Positions 7,376 through 24,482 of a stretch of 32,223 bases of DNA are shown here, piece by piece. The stretch spans positions 1 to 32,223 of the forward strand of contig JANXBA010000026.1 of NCBI GenBank assembly GCA_025062075.1. Reading direction: 5' to 3'. How positions within the stretch are numbered: position 1 is the first letter of the stretch; each line of letters opens with the position of its first letter. The position numbers were made by a program, and so were the translations under genes. A model generated the notes under the pieces. That model was not told the DNA's origin, did no database searches, and saw nothing but the letters and a program-made list of their open reading frames with translations. This stretch comes from Aquificaceae bacterium. Lineage in GTDB: Bacteria; Aquificota; Aquificia; Aquificales; Aquificaceae.

Positions 7376-7750
7376 ATGAAGCGCATTCTCCTGCTCCTGC
7401 CTTTTCTGCTTTCCATGGCGGAGCCCCTCAAAGAGCAAAAGTTTAGAGTAGAGTTAGAAGACAAGGGTGGCACAAAGCACAGCCTGAGGGGGCTCGTCTG
7501 CGGTGGTAGAGCTTACCTCAAGGTCAGGGAGGGGAGCGTAGACTACTCGCTGGAGTTTTCCTCCATAAGAAGCATAGAGGTGCTCTCTCAAGAGGGACAG
7601 CAGATGAGAGTAAGGGTTTCTTTTAAAAACCGGAGCTCTAAGGAGTACACCCTGCCCTCGGACCTTTACTGCAAGGGTAACGCGCTTGGGGGCGAGGCAG
7701 GCTTTTTCCTGCGAGACATCAGGGCTATATTTATCACGGAGGAGAAGTAA
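7376..7750 (+). CDS. Secreted hypothetical protein upstream of ctpA
   Basis: This 124-residue protein begins with a typical signal peptide (MKRILLLLPFLLSMAEP) and then has a beta-rich body with two cysteines, LVCGGRAYLK and SDLYCKGN, which could form a disulfide. I do not recognise the family. It follows cimA by 3 bases and is followed 2 bases later by ctpA, so it is in one operon with the protease; a periplasmic or envelope role is inferred. The ATG is preceded by TATAAT at 7 bases and lacks a proper ribosome site. Other Aquificales genomes would show whether it is always next to ctpA. Confidence 0.65.
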   Translation: MKRILLLLPFLLSMAEPLKEQKFRVELEDKGGTKHSLRGLVCGGRAYLKVREGSVDYSLEFSSIRSIEVLSQEGQQMRVRVSFKNRSSKEYTLPSDLYCKGNALGGEAGFFLRDIRAIFITEEK

Positions 7751-10905: not shown

Positions 10906-11610
10906 ATGAGGGTCCTCTACGAAGGAAAAGCAAAAGTGCTCTACGAGATAGAGGGAGAGCCAGACAAGTGCCTCGTGCACTTCAAGGACACTGCCACCGC
11001 CTTTGACGCCACCAAAAAGGCCCAGATAGAAGGCAAGGGCGTCATAAACAACACCCTCTCCAGCCTCCTCTTCCGGCTTCTGGAAGAGAAAGGCATAAGA
11101 ACACACTTTATCAGGCAGGTCTCCGACAGGGAGATGCTGGTCTGGCGCGCCAAAAGGTACGAGCTGGAGGTGGTGGTGCGTAACATAACCGCCGGCAGTC
11201 TCTGCAAGAGACTGGGTTTAAAAGAAGGGCAGAAGCTAAAAAGACCTTTGGTGGAGCTCTTCTACAAGAGGGACGACCTGCACGACCCGCTCGTATGCAA
11301 GGAACATGTCCTCCTGCTTGGGCTCGCAAGCAGGGGAGAAGTAAACAGCATGGTCGCCATCGCCAAGAGGGTAAACAGGGTGCTCAAGAGCTTTTTCAAA
11401 GACCGTGGTCTTCTACTGGTGGACTTTAAGTTGGAGTTTGGTCTTCTGCCCGACGGGACGCTGGCGGTGATTGACGAGATTTCCCCCGACACCTGCAGGC
11501 TCTGGGACATAAAGACCGGGGAGAAGTTGGACAAGGACAGGTTCAGATTTGACCTTGGGGACCTGATGGAAGGCTACAGAGAGGTGCTCAGAAGGCTTCA
11601 AGGGGGGTAG
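10906..11610 (+). CDS. purC: Phosphoribosylaminoimidazole-succinocarboxamide (SAICAR) synthase
   Basis: This 234-residue single-domain SAICAR synthase joins CAIR and aspartate using ATP in purine synthesis. Family signatures are LYEGKAKVLYEIEGEPD at the N-terminus, KDTATAFDATKKAQIEGKG, VVVRNITAGSLCKR and IDEISPDTCRLWD. Length matches the short bacterial form. It is transcribed alone: other pur genes are not adjacent, and it is flanked by fmt (divergent) and the C39 peptidase gene (convergent, 13-base overlap). Upstream is a TATACT box at leaderless spacing. Confidence 0.95.
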   Translation: MRVLYEGKAKVLYEIEGEPDKCLVHFKDTATAFDATKKAQIEGKGVINNTLSSLLFRLLEEKGIRTHFIRQVSDREMLVWRAKRYELEVVVRNITAGSLCKRLGLKEGQKLKRPLVELFYKRDDLHDPLVCKEHVLLLGLASRGEVNSMVAIAKRVNRVLKSFFKDRGLLLVDFKLEFGLLPDGTLAVIDEISPDTCRLWDIKTGEKLDKDRFRFDLGDLMEGYREVLRRLQGG

Positions 11611-12080
11611 ACCAACAGCATGACCCTTCCCATCTTCTCCCACATCCTGTCCAACTCTCGCTCGCCTACCACCTTGGCCCTCTCGTAGCCCGTGTGTAGC
11701 AGAAAGCTCCTTTCCCTGTAGCCCACTACCACCACATAGTGGGGGTTGCTGGTGCCAAACCTTCCTGTCTCCAACAGCAGTATGGGAGGAATGCCCCTGT
11801 CTATGAGGCTTCTCAGGTCCGAGAGTTCTCCGCGACGAGTCTCTGCCCTTAGACCCTTCTCCTTGGCGTAGTTCTCCAGGTCCGTTATGAGAGCTCCTTT
11901 CAGCTTGGGGTGGTAGACCTTCTCCGCTATGGTCTCTTGAGGGACTTCTATGCCGTAAAAGCTCAGCACTGCGCTGAGGGAGGCAGGACCGCAGAGGCGG
12001 TCTTGCTGTCTTACGAAGGGCACCTGCAGTTCCTTCCCGTAGGCCAGAAGAGAAAAGACCAAGAGCAGAAAAGCTATCAC
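11598..12080 (-). CDS. PA2778-family C39-like cysteine peptidase
   Basis: This 160-residue protein has an N-terminal hydrophobic segment (MIAFLLLVFSLLAYG), probably a signal peptide, then a C39-type papain fold. The catalytic Cys is in QDRLCGPASLSAVL (about Cys30) and the catalytic His in SNPHYVVVVGY (about His114). C39 peptidases classically cleave after double-glycine leaders. This is the stand-alone PA2778 type that occurs next to a PA2779-family protein, as here: the GTG start overlaps the PA2779-like stop (GTGA). It probably acts outside the cytoplasmic membrane; its substrate is unknown. Unlike larger PA2778 proteins, it has no visible C-terminal TPR region. Confidence 0.75.
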   Translation of the reverse strand: MIAFLLLVFSLLAYGKELQVPFVRQQDRLCGPASLSAVLSFYGIEVPQETIAEKVYHPKLKGALITDLENYAKEKGLRAETRRGELSDLRSLIDRGIPPILLLETGRFGTSNPHYVVVVGYRERSFLLHTGYERAKVVGERELDRMWEKMGRVMLLVYPP

Positions 12081-12469
12081 CGTATGATAATCTCTTTGTT
12101 GAGGAGTTTGAGCAGGACCACGAGCAGGATGGCTATGAGCAGGATGCCTATGGCTACACCTATAGCATCGCCTCCTGCCAGCACCTTGTCGGAGGCTTTA
12201 GCCAGCATGTGCACCTGCTCGTCGCTCAGCTGGGAGAGCTTTTGCTCCACCTCCTCCTTGGTAAGACCGTAGCTTCTGAGCTTTTCTTGGAGCTCCTTGC
12301 TCTCAAGAGCTCTTCTGACCTTTGAAAGTTCCTGCTCTCTGCCGTGGGAGAGGTGCTCTGAGGCGGGCTTTGAGTCCACCAGACCTGCCAAGGCGGGGGC
12401 GGAGTTAGAGAAGAAAAACCACCCTGCCACGCAAAGGGCCAGAAAGGGTTTTCTGAAGAGCTCCAACAT
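12077..12469 (-). CDS. PA2779-family (DUF6627-like) membrane protein, partner of the C39 peptidase
   Basis: This 130-residue protein has an N-terminal signal-like segment (residues 8-28), then a polar helical region with the repeat-like LESKELQEKLRSYGLTKEEV and LSQLSDEQVHMLA. A Gly-Gly pair follows (LAGGD, residues 98-101) and then a C-terminal membrane helix (about 103-123) ending in a short basic tail. This architecture and the following C39-like peptidase match the PA2779/PA2778 pair of other Gram-negative bacteria. Role unknown. The ATG has a clear Shine-Dalgarno (AGGAGGT), and a TATAAT box 28 bases upstream overlaps the transporter stop, so the pair has its own promoter besides read-through. 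Confidence 0.7.
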   Translation of the reverse strand: MLELFRKPFLALCVAGWFFFSNSAPALAGLVDSKPASEHLSHGREQELSKVRRALESKELQEKLRSYGLTKEEVEQKLSQLSDEQVHMLAKASDKVLAGGDAIGVAIGILLIAILLVVLLKLLNKEIIIR

Positions 12470-12503: not shown

Positions 12504-13374
12504 CTCCAAGGCGTTCCAGCATGAAAACCCAAAGAGGCACGCTGAAAAAGCTCACCACCACGCCAAGCCCTGAGCTGGCGAAGGCCAAGTGGTGGTTAAG
12601 ACCGTACTTTAGCACCAACGCACTGGCGGTCACCATAGTGGGCATGGAAGACTCCAGCACGGAGACCTTGTAAGCCACCGGCTCAAGAGGTAGGGGCATA
12701 AGAAGGAGCACCGCCAAGCTAGGCACCAAGAACATCTTCGTGCAGACCGCAAAAGCGAGCAGTCTCTTCTCCTTTAGCACGAAGGCAAAGTTCAGGGAAA
12801 TTCCCAAAGAGAAGAGCACTACGGGCAAGAGGGAAGCTGCTGAAAAGTCCACGAACTTCCAGACCTGCTCGGGCAAGGCATAACCCCTCAGGGCAAAGCC
12901 CATTACGAGACCCAAAAAGGGCGGAAAAAGAAAAAGACCCCTCAGGTCAAGTCTACCGCTTAGGATAAGAAAGCCCACGGAGGACACCGCCAAAAAAGAG
13001 CCCACGTTGTCGTAGATGATGGCGTACTCAAGACCCTGCTGTCCATAGTAGGCAAAGCTGTAGGGATAGCCCAGAAAGGCGGTGTTGCCGAAGGCGGAGA
13101 TAACCACCAGCGTCTTTAGGTCCTTAGGGTTCAGGCGCAAGAGCCTACCCAAAAAAAAGGCCAAGAGCAGAGAGCAGAGTATGACCAGCCAGGCCCCTGC
13201 ACCAACCAGAAGCACCTCTCGGGAGAGTCCCAGTCCATGTGCTATTTTGAAGCTAAGAAGGGGCAGGGCAAAGTAGAGCACGTAGTTGACCAGCACCCTT
13301 GCATGCTCTTCCGTGAAGACCCCCCACCTTTTGAAAAGGTAGGCCGTGCTCACCGTAAGGATGACCTCAAGCAT
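12499..13374 (-). CDS. AEC-family (auxin efflux carrier-like) membrane transporter
   Basis: This 291-residue polytopic protein has about ten hydrophobic segments in the two-half layout of AEC permeases. The N-terminus (VILTVSTAYLFKRWGVFTEEHARVLVNYVLYFALPLLSF) with the Asn/Pro elements in helix 2 and the matching NTAFLGYPY region support the family. AEC proteins export or import small organic anions such as malate or amino acids; the substrate cannot be read. Its ATG overlaps the end of the NurA-like gene by 8 bases, so it is in the obg transcript. Length is slightly below the usual 300-320. Confidence 0.8.
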   Translation of the reverse strand: MLEVILTVSTAYLFKRWGVFTEEHARVLVNYVLYFALPLLSFKIAHGLGLSREVLLVGAGAWLVILCSLLLAFFLGRLLRLNPKDLKTLVVISAFGNTAFLGYPYSFAYYGQQGLEYAIIYDNVGSFLAVSSVGFLILSGRLDLRGLFLFPPFLGLVMGFALRGYALPEQVWKFVDFSAASLLPVVLFSLGISLNFAFVLKEKRLLAFAVCTKMFLVPSLAVLLLMPLPLEPVAYKVSVLESSMPTMVTASALVLKYGLNHHLAFASSGLGVVVSFFSVPLWVFMLERLGV

Positions 13375-14302
13375 GGAAAAAGTCTTCTATCTTCCTCCTT
13401 ATGAGTCCATAAGCTCCAAGGTTGAGCCTGAGGAACTTCTCCAGACTACCTATGGGGAGCAAGTTTTGAGGAGACCTCCTGTCCTGAAAGGACTGGCTGG
13501 CAAAAAGGGGCAGTACGCCTGCGGACAGGTCTGCCAACCTCTTTACCAAGTCTATGTTCTGGGGGAAGACCTCCACCCGGGCAAGCCCGTGCAATCCTTC
13601 GTGGGGGGAGAGCTTTATGTACCAAGTGTACTTGTCCACCTTTTCCTCCTCTTCCTGCTGTCGCTGGTAGTGGACTTTCAGGATAGGGCTTCTTTGGCCC
13701 ACCTTGAGGCTATAGAGCAGGTTGAGGTTCACGCGGTCCATGTAGAGCCTTTTTATGCTCTTTACAAAGCCCAGACAGGAGGTGTGCCTGAGCTTGTAGC
13801 TGAGCGTGCCGTCGCACACCACCAAGGCATCAGAAGACTCTTTGAAAGCTCTCAGAGCCAAGCGTGTCTCCAGCTCTTCCTTCATGTACCTGTTTACCTC
13901 CTGGGTTATCTCTCTGTCTGTCTGTTTAGGTTTGAAGCCCAGCAAGGTCTCCAAGGTGGCACTGCCTCTGAAAAAGAGAATTCTCTCCACCTTCTGGTGT
14001 AGGAGGGAGTCTCCAACAAGGTTCAGCCTGCCGTAGTCCACCTTCAGAGCCCCCGCCCCCACGGATACGAAGGCTCCTTCAAAGCTCTCTCCCGTCTCTT
14101 CGTCCTTTATGTAGGCCACGCACTCTGTTCGTCGCACGCCGTCCACGAAGACCACGCTGAAAGTGTCCGGCTGGTGTCCACTGTAGGGCCTTGGCTCTTC
14201 CAAAAAGTCAACGAACTGGGAGCTCTCCTCTATGTCGGCGGACTCTATCTCCAACGGCTGGTGGGGGCTCAGGGAAAAGGTGTATCTGCCCACGCTCTTC
14301 AT
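13367..14302 (-). CDS. NurA-domain-like protein (putative nuclease)
   Basis: This 311-residue protein is not securely identified. Two acidic motifs, VVFVDGVRRTE (about residues 49-59) and ALVVCDGTLSYK (about 158-169), resemble the metal-binding Asp motifs of NurA nuclease domains. A C-terminal LPIGSLEKFLRLNLGAYGLIRR sits where NurA proteins have their last conserved helix. NurA acts with the HerA translocase in DNA-end resection; no herA is present here. It begins 1 base after the obg stop, which makes it part of that operon. The alternative is an uncharacterised Aquificales-specific family. Function is inference. Confidence 0.5.
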   Translation of the reverse strand: MKSVGRYTFSLSPHQPLEIESADIEESSQFVDFLEEPRPYSGHQPDTFSVVFVDGVRRTECVAYIKDEETGESFEGAFVSVGAGALKVDYGRLNLVGDSLLHQKVERILFFRGSATLETLLGFKPKQTDREITQEVNRYMKEELETRLALRAFKESSDALVVCDGTLSYKLRHTSCLGFVKSIKRLYMDRVNLNLLYSLKVGQRSPILKVHYQRQQEEEEKVDKYTWYIKLSPHEGLHGLARVEVFPQNIDLVKRLADLSAGVLPLFASQSFQDRRSPQNLLPIGSLEKFLRLNLGAYGLIRRKIEDFFHA

Positions 14303-19934: not shown

Positions 19935-20920
19935 ACCTCTGGGAGCTGTCTAAGCTTTTGGAAGGCCAACTGCGGGGCGACGGGGACTTTCAGGTGCAGG
20001 GGGTTTCCTCCCCAGAATACCCCAAAGAGGGGACGGCAATCTTCTGCAAACCCGAGCAGGTGGAAAAGCTAAAAGGCATGCAAGTGGCTCTGGTAGTCAC
20101 CGAGGAGGTGGACTTTCCAAGATACGTGAAGGTCAAAAACCTCAGGCTGGCCCTGGCCAAGTTTCTCTCCCACAGCTACCCAGAGAAGCACCCTTGTGGC
20201 GTTTCGCCCAAGGCCCACATAGAGGAAGAGGTTAAGATAGGTGAGAACGCTTATGTAGGACCCTTCGTCTTCGTGGGCAGGGGAGCGGTTCTGGAGGAAG
20301 GGGTCAAGGTCTATCCCTTCTGCTACGTAGGAGAAGGGGTGCGAATAGGCAGGGGGAGCGTGCTCTTCAGCGGTGTCCACGTATACCCGGGCTGTGTGAT
20401 AGGTCAGGGTGTGCGCATACACAGCGGTTCGGTCATAGGGGCGGACGGCTTTGGCTACTACGTGGGGCCAGAGGGCATATTCAAGCTCCCGCACGTAGGC
20501 AGAGTGGTCATAGAGGACTTTGTGGAGATAGGGGCCAACACCTGCGTAGACAGGGCTCTCATAGATGAAACAAGGATAGGTAAAAACACGAAGATAGACA
20601 ACCTGGTGCAAGTGGGGCACAACTGCGTCGTGGGAGAGGCTAACGTGATAGCCGGTCAGACGGGGCTTGCGGGTAGCGTGAAAACCGGCAAAAACGTGAT
20701 GCTTGCAGGTCAGGTGGCCGTGGCGGACCATGTGAGCCTCGGAGACAATGTGGTGGTATCTGGCAAGGCTGGTGTGAGCAAAAGTCTCGAGGGAGGAAAA
20801 GTTTACGGAGGAGTTATCCCCGCCATGGAGTGGTCCAAGTGGAAAAGGCTCTACGCTTATGTATTAAGGCTACCGGAGCTTTTTAAGGAGAAAAAGCGTG
20901 AGGATAAGGATAGCCCATAG
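19931..20920 (+). CDS. lpxD: UDP-3-O-(3-hydroxyacyl)glucosamine N-acyltransferase
   Basis: This 329-residue LpxD catalyses the third step of lipid A synthesis, adding the second hydroxyacyl chain. The N-terminal uridine-binding domain (about residues 1-95) is followed by a left-handed beta-helix of hexapeptide repeats. The active-site His is probably within NLVQVGHNCVVGE, and the segment GADGFGYYVGPEG is typical of LpxD. A C-terminal helix closes the protein. Its presence implies a lipopolysaccharide-bearing outer membrane. The ATG overlaps the skp stop (ATGA) and the mqnD GTG lies inside its 3' end. Confidence 0.95.
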   Translation: MNLWELSKLLEGQLRGDGDFQVQGVSSPEYPKEGTAIFCKPEQVEKLKGMQVALVVTEEVDFPRYVKVKNLRLALAKFLSHSYPEKHPCGVSPKAHIEEEVKIGENAYVGPFVFVGRGAVLEEGVKVYPFCYVGEGVRIGRGSVLFSGVHVYPGCVIGQGVRIHSGSVIGADGFGYYVGPEGIFKLPHVGRVVIEDFVEIGANTCVDRALIDETRIGKNTKIDNLVQVGHNCVVGEANVIAGQTGLAGSVKTGKNVMLAGQVAVADHVSLGDNVVVSGKAGVSKSLEGGKVYGGVIPAMEWSKWKRLYAYVLRLPELFKEKKREDKDSP

Positions 20921-21743
20921 TCCGGACTCTGACGACGCCTTTATGTTCTACGCCTTAACTGCGGGCAAGGTAGAGACGGGCAATCTCCAGATAGAGCACG
21001 TGCTGGCGGACATAGAGACCCTTAACCGAGAGGCCCTAAAGGGCACCTATGAGGTCTCCGCACTTTCTTTTCATGCCTATCCTTACGTGGCAGAGCTCTA
21101 TCTGGTTTTGCCAAGCGGGGGCAGTGTGGGAGAGGGCTATGGGCCCGTAGTGGTAAGCAGGGAGCCCCTTACTACCCTGAAGGGTAAAAAAGTGGCGGTG
21201 CCTGGTACTCTCACCACCGCCTACCTGGTCCTTAAGCTCTACGAACCGAACTTTAAGGAAGTTCTTATGCCCTTTGACCAGATTCTTCAGGCGGTAGGAG
21301 AAGGGCAGGTAGAGGCGGGGCTTGTCATACACGAGGGACAGCTCAGCTACCAAGACAGAGGTCTTAGAAAGGTGGTTGACTTAGGCCAGTGGTGGAAACA
21401 ACAAACGGGCCTTCCCCTTCCGCTGGGCTGTAACGTGGTAAGGAAAGACCTCGGGCTTGAACTCGTAAGGAAAATAGAAAGTCTCGTGAGGGCGAGCGTC
21501 CAGTACGCCCTAGACCACAGGGAGGAAGCCCTGACCTACGCAATAGAGTACGCAAGGGACATAAGGGAAGACCTCCAAAAAACGGACAGGTTTGTGGGCA
21601 TGTACGTAAACAGGAGAACCCTTGACTACGGAGAGGACGGCAGACAGGCGGTAAGATTACTGCTCCAGAAAGGCATAGAAAAGGGTATAATTGGGGCACC
21701 GATGCCCGAGACTATATTCAGCGACGAGGTGAGAGGTCCATGA
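20898..21743 (+). CDS. mqnD: 1,4-dihydroxy-6-naphthoate synthase (futalosine pathway)
   Basis: This 281-residue periplasmic-binding-protein-like enzyme of menaquinone synthesis converts cyclic dehypoxanthine futalosine to 1,4-dihydroxy-6-naphthoate. Recognisable segments are IAHSPDSDDAFMFYAL at the N-terminus, VLADIETLNREALKGTYEV, VSALSFHAYPYVAELYLVL, GEGYGPVVVS and the catalytic-His region GLVIHEGQLSYQ. The family normally has SPCPNDTF-like sequence at the start, so the SPDSDDAF form is a mild variant. The GTG start overlaps lpxD by 23 bases. No other mqn gene is nearby. It fits a menaquinone-type quinone feeding from Complex I. Confidence 0.85.
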   Translation: MRIRIAHSPDSDDAFMFYALTAGKVETGNLQIEHVLADIETLNREALKGTYEVSALSFHAYPYVAELYLVLPSGGSVGEGYGPVVVSREPLTTLKGKKVAVPGTLTTAYLVLKLYEPNFKEVLMPFDQILQAVGEGQVEAGLVIHEGQLSYQDRGLRKVVDLGQWWKQQTGLPLPLGCNVVRKDLGLELVRKIESLVRASVQYALDHREEALTYAIEYARDIREDLQKTDRFVGMYVNRRTLDYGEDGRQAVRLLLQKGIEKGIIGAPMPETIFSDEVRGP

Positions 21744-23477: not shown

Positions 23478-23766
23478 CACACGGACGCAGAAATCTGCTC
23501 CGTATGCGTGGTGGAAGAACCCCGATTGGAGGGAGTCTCCCCAAGAGACCTACGCACAGAAGAGCTCATAGACAGGGTGGAAAGATACAAGGTAAAGGAA
23601 GTTATACTGGCAAGCCACCGCTAACTACATAGCCAAGCTCTTAAAGAAGCGGTCCCTCGGCCTGAAAGTGACCAGAATATCCTATGGTCTGCAGTTTGGC
23701 TCTTTTGTGGAGCTGGCGGACGAGCTGTCGCCGGAGAAGTCCATAGAAAACAGAAAGTCCTTCTGA
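23478..23766 (+). pseudogene. recR: recR remnant: N-terminally truncated, three internal deletions, one frameshift
   Basis: Directly after the nuoF stop, translation shows collinear blocks of the recombination mediator RecR. HTDAEICS (zinc-finger end) is followed by VCVVEEP (Toprim start), then LEGVSPRDLRTEELIDRV and KVKEVILAS, all in the frame that ends at TAA 23622-23624. After a frame change come ANYIAKLLKK, LKVTRISYG, FVELADELS and ENRKSF, ending at TGA 23764-23766. Against typical RecR, the HhH N-terminus and first zinc cysteines are missing. About 10, 25 and 8 residues are lost between consecutive blocks, including the VEGEAT segment of Toprim. It cannot encode a working RecR. Its 3' 85 bases lie antisense to chaN. 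Confidence 0.85.
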
Positions 23767-24482
23767 AAGTCCTCTCTTCTCAGGATTTTTATGCTTGCCT
23801 GCGGTCTCAGCACCTTGAGCCTTCTGGGTATTCCCGTGCTGTAATCCTGCGCATGCCCTCTACCTACCAAAACCACCACTTTGTAGTCAGGGTGTCTGTC
23901 CAAGAGCTTGTTTATGGCGTAAGCCATCCCGTTGTCCCAGGCGTTCTGCACATCAAAAAAACTCTTCTCCTCCACCTTAGGATGTGAGGCCAACACCTTT
24001 TGGAGCTCCCGCCTTTCCCTCTCTGTGTATTCGATTATGGGATTAGGTAGGCTCTCGTCCCGCACCTTTTCCAAACCCTCCCGCCTTATCCTCTGGACCA
24101 GCTCCGAGGAGATATTTATGGCCACCATTCTTATGCCCCTTTCCTTTGCGAACCGCCATATACTGCGGTACATGGCGGGGTCGTAGCCCCACCTTTGGAA
24201 GTACTCCGTTCTCCTCAACAGCTCTTCCTCTTCTATCCTGCAATCCACATACTCGTCAAGGACTCTTTGAAAGGGTTGTTGAAACATCTCCATAGCTATG
24301 AAGAACTTATGACCTCTGAAGTGCAAGGTTTTTATGATTTCAAGCTGAAAGTGGTGGTCCTCTCTGCTCGTGTGCTCTTCGGGTAGGAATATTACCTGAT
24401 GCTTGTCGATAATAACCCATGGAAACTCTCGGGCGGTCGTAGAAGGTATCAGAAGAACAAGAAAACACAAAAGTAAAAACAT
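23682..24482 (-). CDS. ChaN-like (Tiki/heme-binding uptake superfamily) secreted protein
   Basis: This 266-residue protein has a signal peptide (MFLLLCFLVLLIPSTTA). The ChaN/PF04187-like order of motifs follows: VIFLPEEHTSREDHHFQLEI, FIAMEMFQQPFQRVLDEY, MVAINIS, NAWDNGMAYAI and VVVLVGRGHAQ (conserved His). ChaN-like proteins are proposed to bind heme or act like Tiki-type metalloproteases; the activity here is unknown. The last about 28 residues (after RREDFQKD) are encoded antisense to the recR remnant and become Ser-rich and unlike the family, so the natural C-terminus has probably been replaced or extended. The start is preceded by TATAAA 8 bases away, suggesting a short or absent leader. 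Confidence 0.75.
   Translation of the reverse strand: MFLLLCFLVLLIPSTTAREFPWVIIDKHQVIFLPEEHTSREDHHFQLEIIKTLHFRGHKFFIAMEMFQQPFQRVLDEYVDCRIEEEELLRRTEYFQRWGYDPAMYRSIWRFAKERGIRMVAINISSELVQRIRREGLEKVRDESLPNPIIEYTERERRELQKVLASHPKVEEKSFFDVQNAWDNGMAYAINKLLDRHPDYKVVVLVGRGHAQDYSTGIPRRLKVLRPQASIKILRREDFQKDFLFSMDFSGDSSSASSTKEPNCRP

Follow-up and report, generated by a model that had tools for sequence, protein, structure and literature searches.

Peptidases of the C39 family are otherwise known almost only as the cytosolic, leader-cutting domains of ABC exporters, and the one studied periplasmic case is FapD of the Pseudomonas Fap amyloid system, whose active-site Cys is essential and which had no proven substrate when described (PMC5557850). 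The FapD case shows that a C39 can be enzymatically active in the periplasm after export (PMC5557850). Exported proteins of the GlyGly-CTERM/rhombosortase system carry a Gly motif ahead of a membrane helix at the C-terminus and are served by a dedicated protease (PMC3237569, PMC6219818). The PA2778/PA2779 gene pair (NF033920 and NF033919; DUF6627) is already named by NCBI, and no function is described for it in the searchable literature; C39 processing as such is known.

The pair studied here lies in a window of 32,223 nucleotides from an Aquificaceae bacterium (contig G000:C55 in the Aquificota genome set). It resembles PA2778/PA2779 in having a PA2779 protein above the family cut-off, an adjoining C39 gene and the same gene order, and differs in that the peptidase is the C39 half alone, the TPR half being a separate lipoprotein gene. 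With FapD it would share, by description, a Sec-exported stand-alone periplasmic C39 and a possible GG/GA target site in the operon partner; FapD sits in an amyloid secretion operon, whereas the partner here is a predicted membrane-anchored helical protein, and no fap-like genes were found beside the pair. The C39 domains of ComA, PCAT1 and LahT are transporter-linked and cytosolic, while here there is no transporter, the peptidase appears to be exported, Ser or Thr replaces the catalytic Asp, the loop before the His is longer and the candidate substrate runs on into a membrane helix. Rhombosortase is a rhomboid serine protease with many targets, whereas a C39 cysteine peptidase with one or few targets and an Ala-Gly-Gly/Ala motif would be at work here; no rhombosortase partner was found beside PA2779, whose constant neighbour is the C39 gene. 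The Ala-Gly-(Gly/Ala/Ser) pattern, the joint loss of the parts, the Ser or Thr in the active site and a TPR lipoprotein encoded by its own gene seem not to have been reported before. The system offers a widespread, putatively exported C39 with one obvious, always co-inherited candidate substrate and one candidate site.

The PA2779 and C39 genes of the window

Both open reading frames were found where the initial annotation had placed them (Table 1), and the pair it described was confirmed. The PA2779 protein scores 83.2 bits against NCBIfam NF033919 (cut-off 40) and 30.6 against Pfam DUF6627 (cut-off 27). It is composed of a signal peptide read in the sequence (residues 1-28, ending in ALA before a G), a helical domain (about 40-97), an AGGDA break (98-102) and a single membrane helix (103-128), which the LAGGD motif (97-101) directly precedes. 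In the AlphaFold2 model (mean pLDDT 74) the last domain helix (83-97) is separated from the membrane helix by residues 98-102, the sole interruption between the two. No significant PDB match was obtained for a known fold, the query model being of moderate confidence, and a plasmid search with PA2779 gave no match.

The C39 protein matches PF13529 (6.6e-15; 56.4, cut-off 24) and PF03412 (1.7e-12; 47.8, cut-off 22), both above the curated cut-offs, and has Q25, C30 and H114, with T130 where Asp is usual. Its N-terminus is hydrophobic (MIAFLLLVFSLLAYG) as read by eye. The proposed naming as a PA2779/PA2778-type pair stands for the first protein; the second reaches 90 bits against the PA2778 equivalog NF033920, whose cut-off is 150, because the match (positions 4-147 of 255) covers the N-terminal C39 half alone. 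No genome among 136 Aquificota exceeds that cut-off.

Table 1. Positions of the PA2779/C39 pair and of the associated lipoprotein gene
Feature	Position	Strand	Remarks
PA2779/DUF6627 protein	12077-12469	-	ATG start, 130 aa; NF033919 and Pfam match
Stand-alone C39 peptidase domain, putatively exported	11598-12080	-	GTG start, 160 aa; Pfam match
Stop of PA2779 / start of C39, 4-bp overlap GTGA	12077-12080	-	within CGGTGA
Codons of L97-A98-G99-G100, putative C39 site (P4-P1)	12170-12181	-	sequence and alignment
TPR lipoprotein of the window genome (family f1)	G000:C19:40096-40527		beside ffh

The 4-bp overlap makes translational coupling of the two genes plausible. In genus g5 (L043:~858, L047) the C39 gene is without ATG, GTG or TTG at the expected place and its frame seems to start at an ATA that shares bases with the stop of PA2779 (ATAA), in the place of the GTGA of the window; initiation at ATA, or a gene in the course of being lost, is possible.

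The neighbours of the pair in the window are purC, an auxin-efflux-type carrier and NurA. The purC gene (10906-11610, plus strand) and the C39 gene are convergent, with 3' ends overlapping by 13 bp (11598-11610), and the NurA-domain protein (13367-14302, minus strand; Pfam 4e-11) is bacterial. Elsewhere in the window, a gene for a CrtD/carotenoid isomerase-like protein is cut by the contig end, so that 29-715 encodes its C-terminal half only, and the open reading frames 7376-7750, 20898-21743 and 23682-24482 (124, 281 and 266 aa) have no NCBIfam match at 1e-5.

Distribution of the pair and of a TPR lipoprotein

The survey covered 136 Aquificota genomes and an even sample of 399 Pseudomonadota, with the C39 half of NF033920 counted in the Aquificota at 50 bits or above. 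PA2779 (NF033919) is present in 47 of the 136 Aquificota genomes, in one copy each, and the C39 half in 46, which are exactly the same genomes minus G054. In G054 (L198, G054:C50) stop codons interrupt the PA2779 frame, and both the C39 and the TPR lipoprotein are absent, so that in this one genome the whole module is lost. PA2779 is above the cut-off in 39 of the 399 Pseudomonadota genomes, with the C39 gene directly downstream in all 39. When 80 loci were picked by the C39 alone, and the Gly motif therefore had no influence on the choice, PA2779 was found just upstream in 79. The exception (L086) comes from genome G146, whose three PA2779 genes are all on other contigs and have no C39 gene nearby, and in G031 PA2779 and C39 are on different contigs; adjacency is thus almost general, not obligatory. 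By these counts PA2779 and the C39 are obligate partners, which supports the pairing in unrelated Gram-negatives put forward initially. Among 96 flanking proteins from the Pseudomonadota loci no family is common beyond three occurrences; the module therefore stands alone.

Co-occurrence of further genes, a point raised by the initial annotation, revealed a third component that it had missed. In two Pseudomonadota peptidases (Azoarcus and Eleftheria) a lipobox (LAAC or LTGC) is present and a TPR domain lies behind the C39 domain, and in Aquificota the TPR half is encoded as a separate lipoprotein, whose gene follows that of the C39 in family f2 but is unlinked in f1. Its profile separates the 136 Aquificota genomes into two clear score groups (at least 98 bits and at most 71). 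The gene was found in 43 of the 47 genomes with PA2779 versus 2 of the 89 others. The four PA2779 genomes without it include G054, with its broken PA2779, and G089, where a contig end truncates the C39; G035 and G090, which carry it without PA2779, have completeness values of 69% and 78%. From this distribution the TPR lipoprotein is assigned to the PA2779/C39 system. That PA2779, C39 and the TPR lipoprotein form a functional module is near certain, because the parts are co-inherited, co-lost, and fused or split. The C39-TPR gene of L138 (in G269) is split into two frames (1065-1508 and 519-1040), possibly by a frameshift; G269 also carries another operon that is intact (L172).

Conservation of the motif and of the active site

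Conservation was determined on 180 aligned PA2779 homologues (effective number 94, weighted percentages). Ala98 (97%) and Gly99 (98%) are nearly invariant in both phyla, a level reached otherwise only by Gly68 in a domain turn (100%) and by the signal-peptidase residue Ala28 (97%). Position 100 is Gly in just 57%, followed by Ala (35%), Glu (5%), Ser (2%) and Gln (1%). A conserved Gly-Gly before the helix had been expected; the first Gly fits this, strict Gly-Gly conservation is rejected, and the motif is better written Ala-Gly-(Gly/Ala). Since C39 leaders may end in Gly-Gly, Gly-Ala or Gly-Ser (PMC6363468), the departure is mostly within C39 tolerance, Gly, Ala or Ser accounting for about 94% (weighted) and Glu or Gln for about 6%. 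The lineages with Glu or Gln at this P1 position (L064, L099, L127, L140, L142, L144, L177) retain Gln, Cys and His in their C39. The motif is also kept in PA2779 paralogues without a C39 neighbour (L159, L164, L165, L166, L194, L195 and the second copy in L168). Of the leader-helix positions known from LahT (-4, -7 and -12, hydrophobic in C39 leaders), -12 is Leu in 74% of PA2779 proteins, -7 is Asp and -4 mostly Pro (Leu in Aquificota). An origin of PA2779 among the Nif11/NHLP leader peptides, hinted at by LSDxE...GG, was considered and rejected, as 41 members gave no NCBIfam or Pfam match.

In 168 C39 sequences the Gln, Cys and His are invariant (100%), and the position of the catalytic Asp is Ser in 68%, Thr in 25% and Asp in 3%. 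Alignment with NHLP- and ABC-type reference C39 domains, which have HDP or NDP there, confirms the replacement. The best Foldseek matches of the AlphaFold2 model of the window C39 (mean pLDDT 92.7) are ComA (3k8u) and LahT (6mpz), both active double-glycine peptidases, and degenerate C39-like domains (HlyB 7sgr, 3zua) rank lower. Papain-like families with a full core yet without a triad have been described (PMC10318531), and by this analogy catalytic activity is plausible despite the Ser or Thr.

Residue coupling between PA2779 and C39 is dominated by the split between phyla and is uninformative on the site; the P1 column showed no coupling with any C39 column. Four lineages (L140, L142, L144, L158) combine an unusual PA2779 motif (PVGED, PTGEG, AAGT) with an unusual active-site triplet in the C39 (HTD, HGG). 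Such a triplet is found in 4 of 7 motif-deviant lineages versus 5 of 160, two of these five merely being without the stretch. A correlated change of motif and triplet is possible, the case coming from about two lineages.

Proposed processing of PA2779 and alternative readings

We infer the following topology, docking, cleavage and product. PA2779 would be exported by Sec, lose its signal peptide and be held in the inner membrane by the C-terminal helix, its small helical domain facing the periplasm. The C39, a TPR-fused lipoprotein in Pseudomonadota and a free domain with a separate TPR lipoprotein in Aquificota, would be the periplasmic enzyme; it would dock on the last helix of the PA2779 domain, like C39 enzymes on leader helices, and cut after Ala-Gly-(Gly/Ala), freeing the ~72-residue domain from its membrane anchor. 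A cut at this motif most simply accounts for where it lies and for which residues it tolerates. Release of the domain by such a FapD-like peptidase is in our judgement evenly poised between right and wrong. The exact pairing and co-loss, the location of the motif at the helix break, the invariant Gln, Cys and His, the ComA/LahT-like model and the precedent of FapD (PMC5557850) count for it. Counted against it are the Glu or Gln at P1 in several lineages, canonical C39 sites being Gly, Ala or Ser; the replacement of the catalytic Asp; the leader positions of LahT type, hydrophobic at -12, Asp at -7 and mostly Pro at -4; the P1 column uncoupled to the C39; and the motif in paralogues without a C39 neighbour, which a C39 elsewhere in the genome could serve. 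Of the initial suggestion that PA2779 is the substrate or partner of the C39, the pairing, the peptidase residues and the near-invariant Gly at the helix survive, and the strict Gly-Gly does not.

The same pairing and co-loss would fit equally well if PA2779 were a membrane anchor or activator of the C39, with its helical domain binding the peptidase and keeping it at the inner membrane, the substrate another envelope protein and Ala-Gly-(Gly/Ala) a flexible joint of small residues. The Glu or Gln at the second position and the missing coupling suit a joint better than a cut site, and the free Aquificota C39 domains have no other anchor except the TPR lipoprotein. A joint leaves the near-invariant Ala and first Gly across phyla unexplained, however, and the C39 of the two Pseudomonadota records, already a lipoprotein, needs no anchor; the paralogues without a C39 neighbour also suit substrates better. 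We regard this role of PA2779 as possible, though doubtful. Were the C39 catalytically dead or nearly so, it could be a binding domain of the HlyB type that presents PA2779 to another protein, and the Ser or Thr found in 93% at a position where reference C39 domains have Asp points in this direction. To our knowledge, dead C39-like domains lose the Cys, whereas the Cys, the His and the oxyanion Gln are all kept here; with the record of triad-less papain-like families having a complete core (PMC10318531), this makes a dead domain improbable.

A cut at the motif may also be read in reverse, with the C-terminal membrane peptide (about 30 residues) active and the helical domain its leader, as in double-glycine bacteriocins and pheromones. 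Classical double-glycine substrates do yield their product from what lies behind the site (PMC6363468), and the C-terminal stretch of PA2779 is well conserved inside clades (e.g. TDILGLTKVFPFTRSVR). Between clades, however, what follows the motif differs in sequence throughout (NKEIIIR, FPFTRSVR, WYFAFRR, or ending at the helix), whereas the domain before it is conserved in Aquificota and Pseudomonadota, and PA2779 is without a match to the leader families of NCBIfam or Pfam. An active membrane peptide is quite unlikely, and the soluble domain is favoured as the product because it stays conserved while the segment after the motif varies by clade.

Release of the PA2779 domain may belong to a wider scheme, a hitherto undescribed three-part envelope processing machine in which a Ser/Thr-modified periplasmic C39 and the TPR lipoprotein would release the domain of this one dedicated protein at Ala-Gly-(Gly/Ala), or transfer it to an acceptor in the manner of a sortase. 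We put this forward tentatively, with its prospects somewhat below even; if true, the machine would be the C39 counterpart of the sortase and rhombosortase systems, in Aquificota and about a tenth of Pseudomonadota. In P. stutzeri a PA2779 gene ranks among the 3% of genes with the highest expression in each of four samples (PMC10155442), which fits an abundant substrate or product. As Pseudomonas relatives are easily cultured and the partner gene is highly expressed, the targets of a periplasmic C39 are directly testable there.
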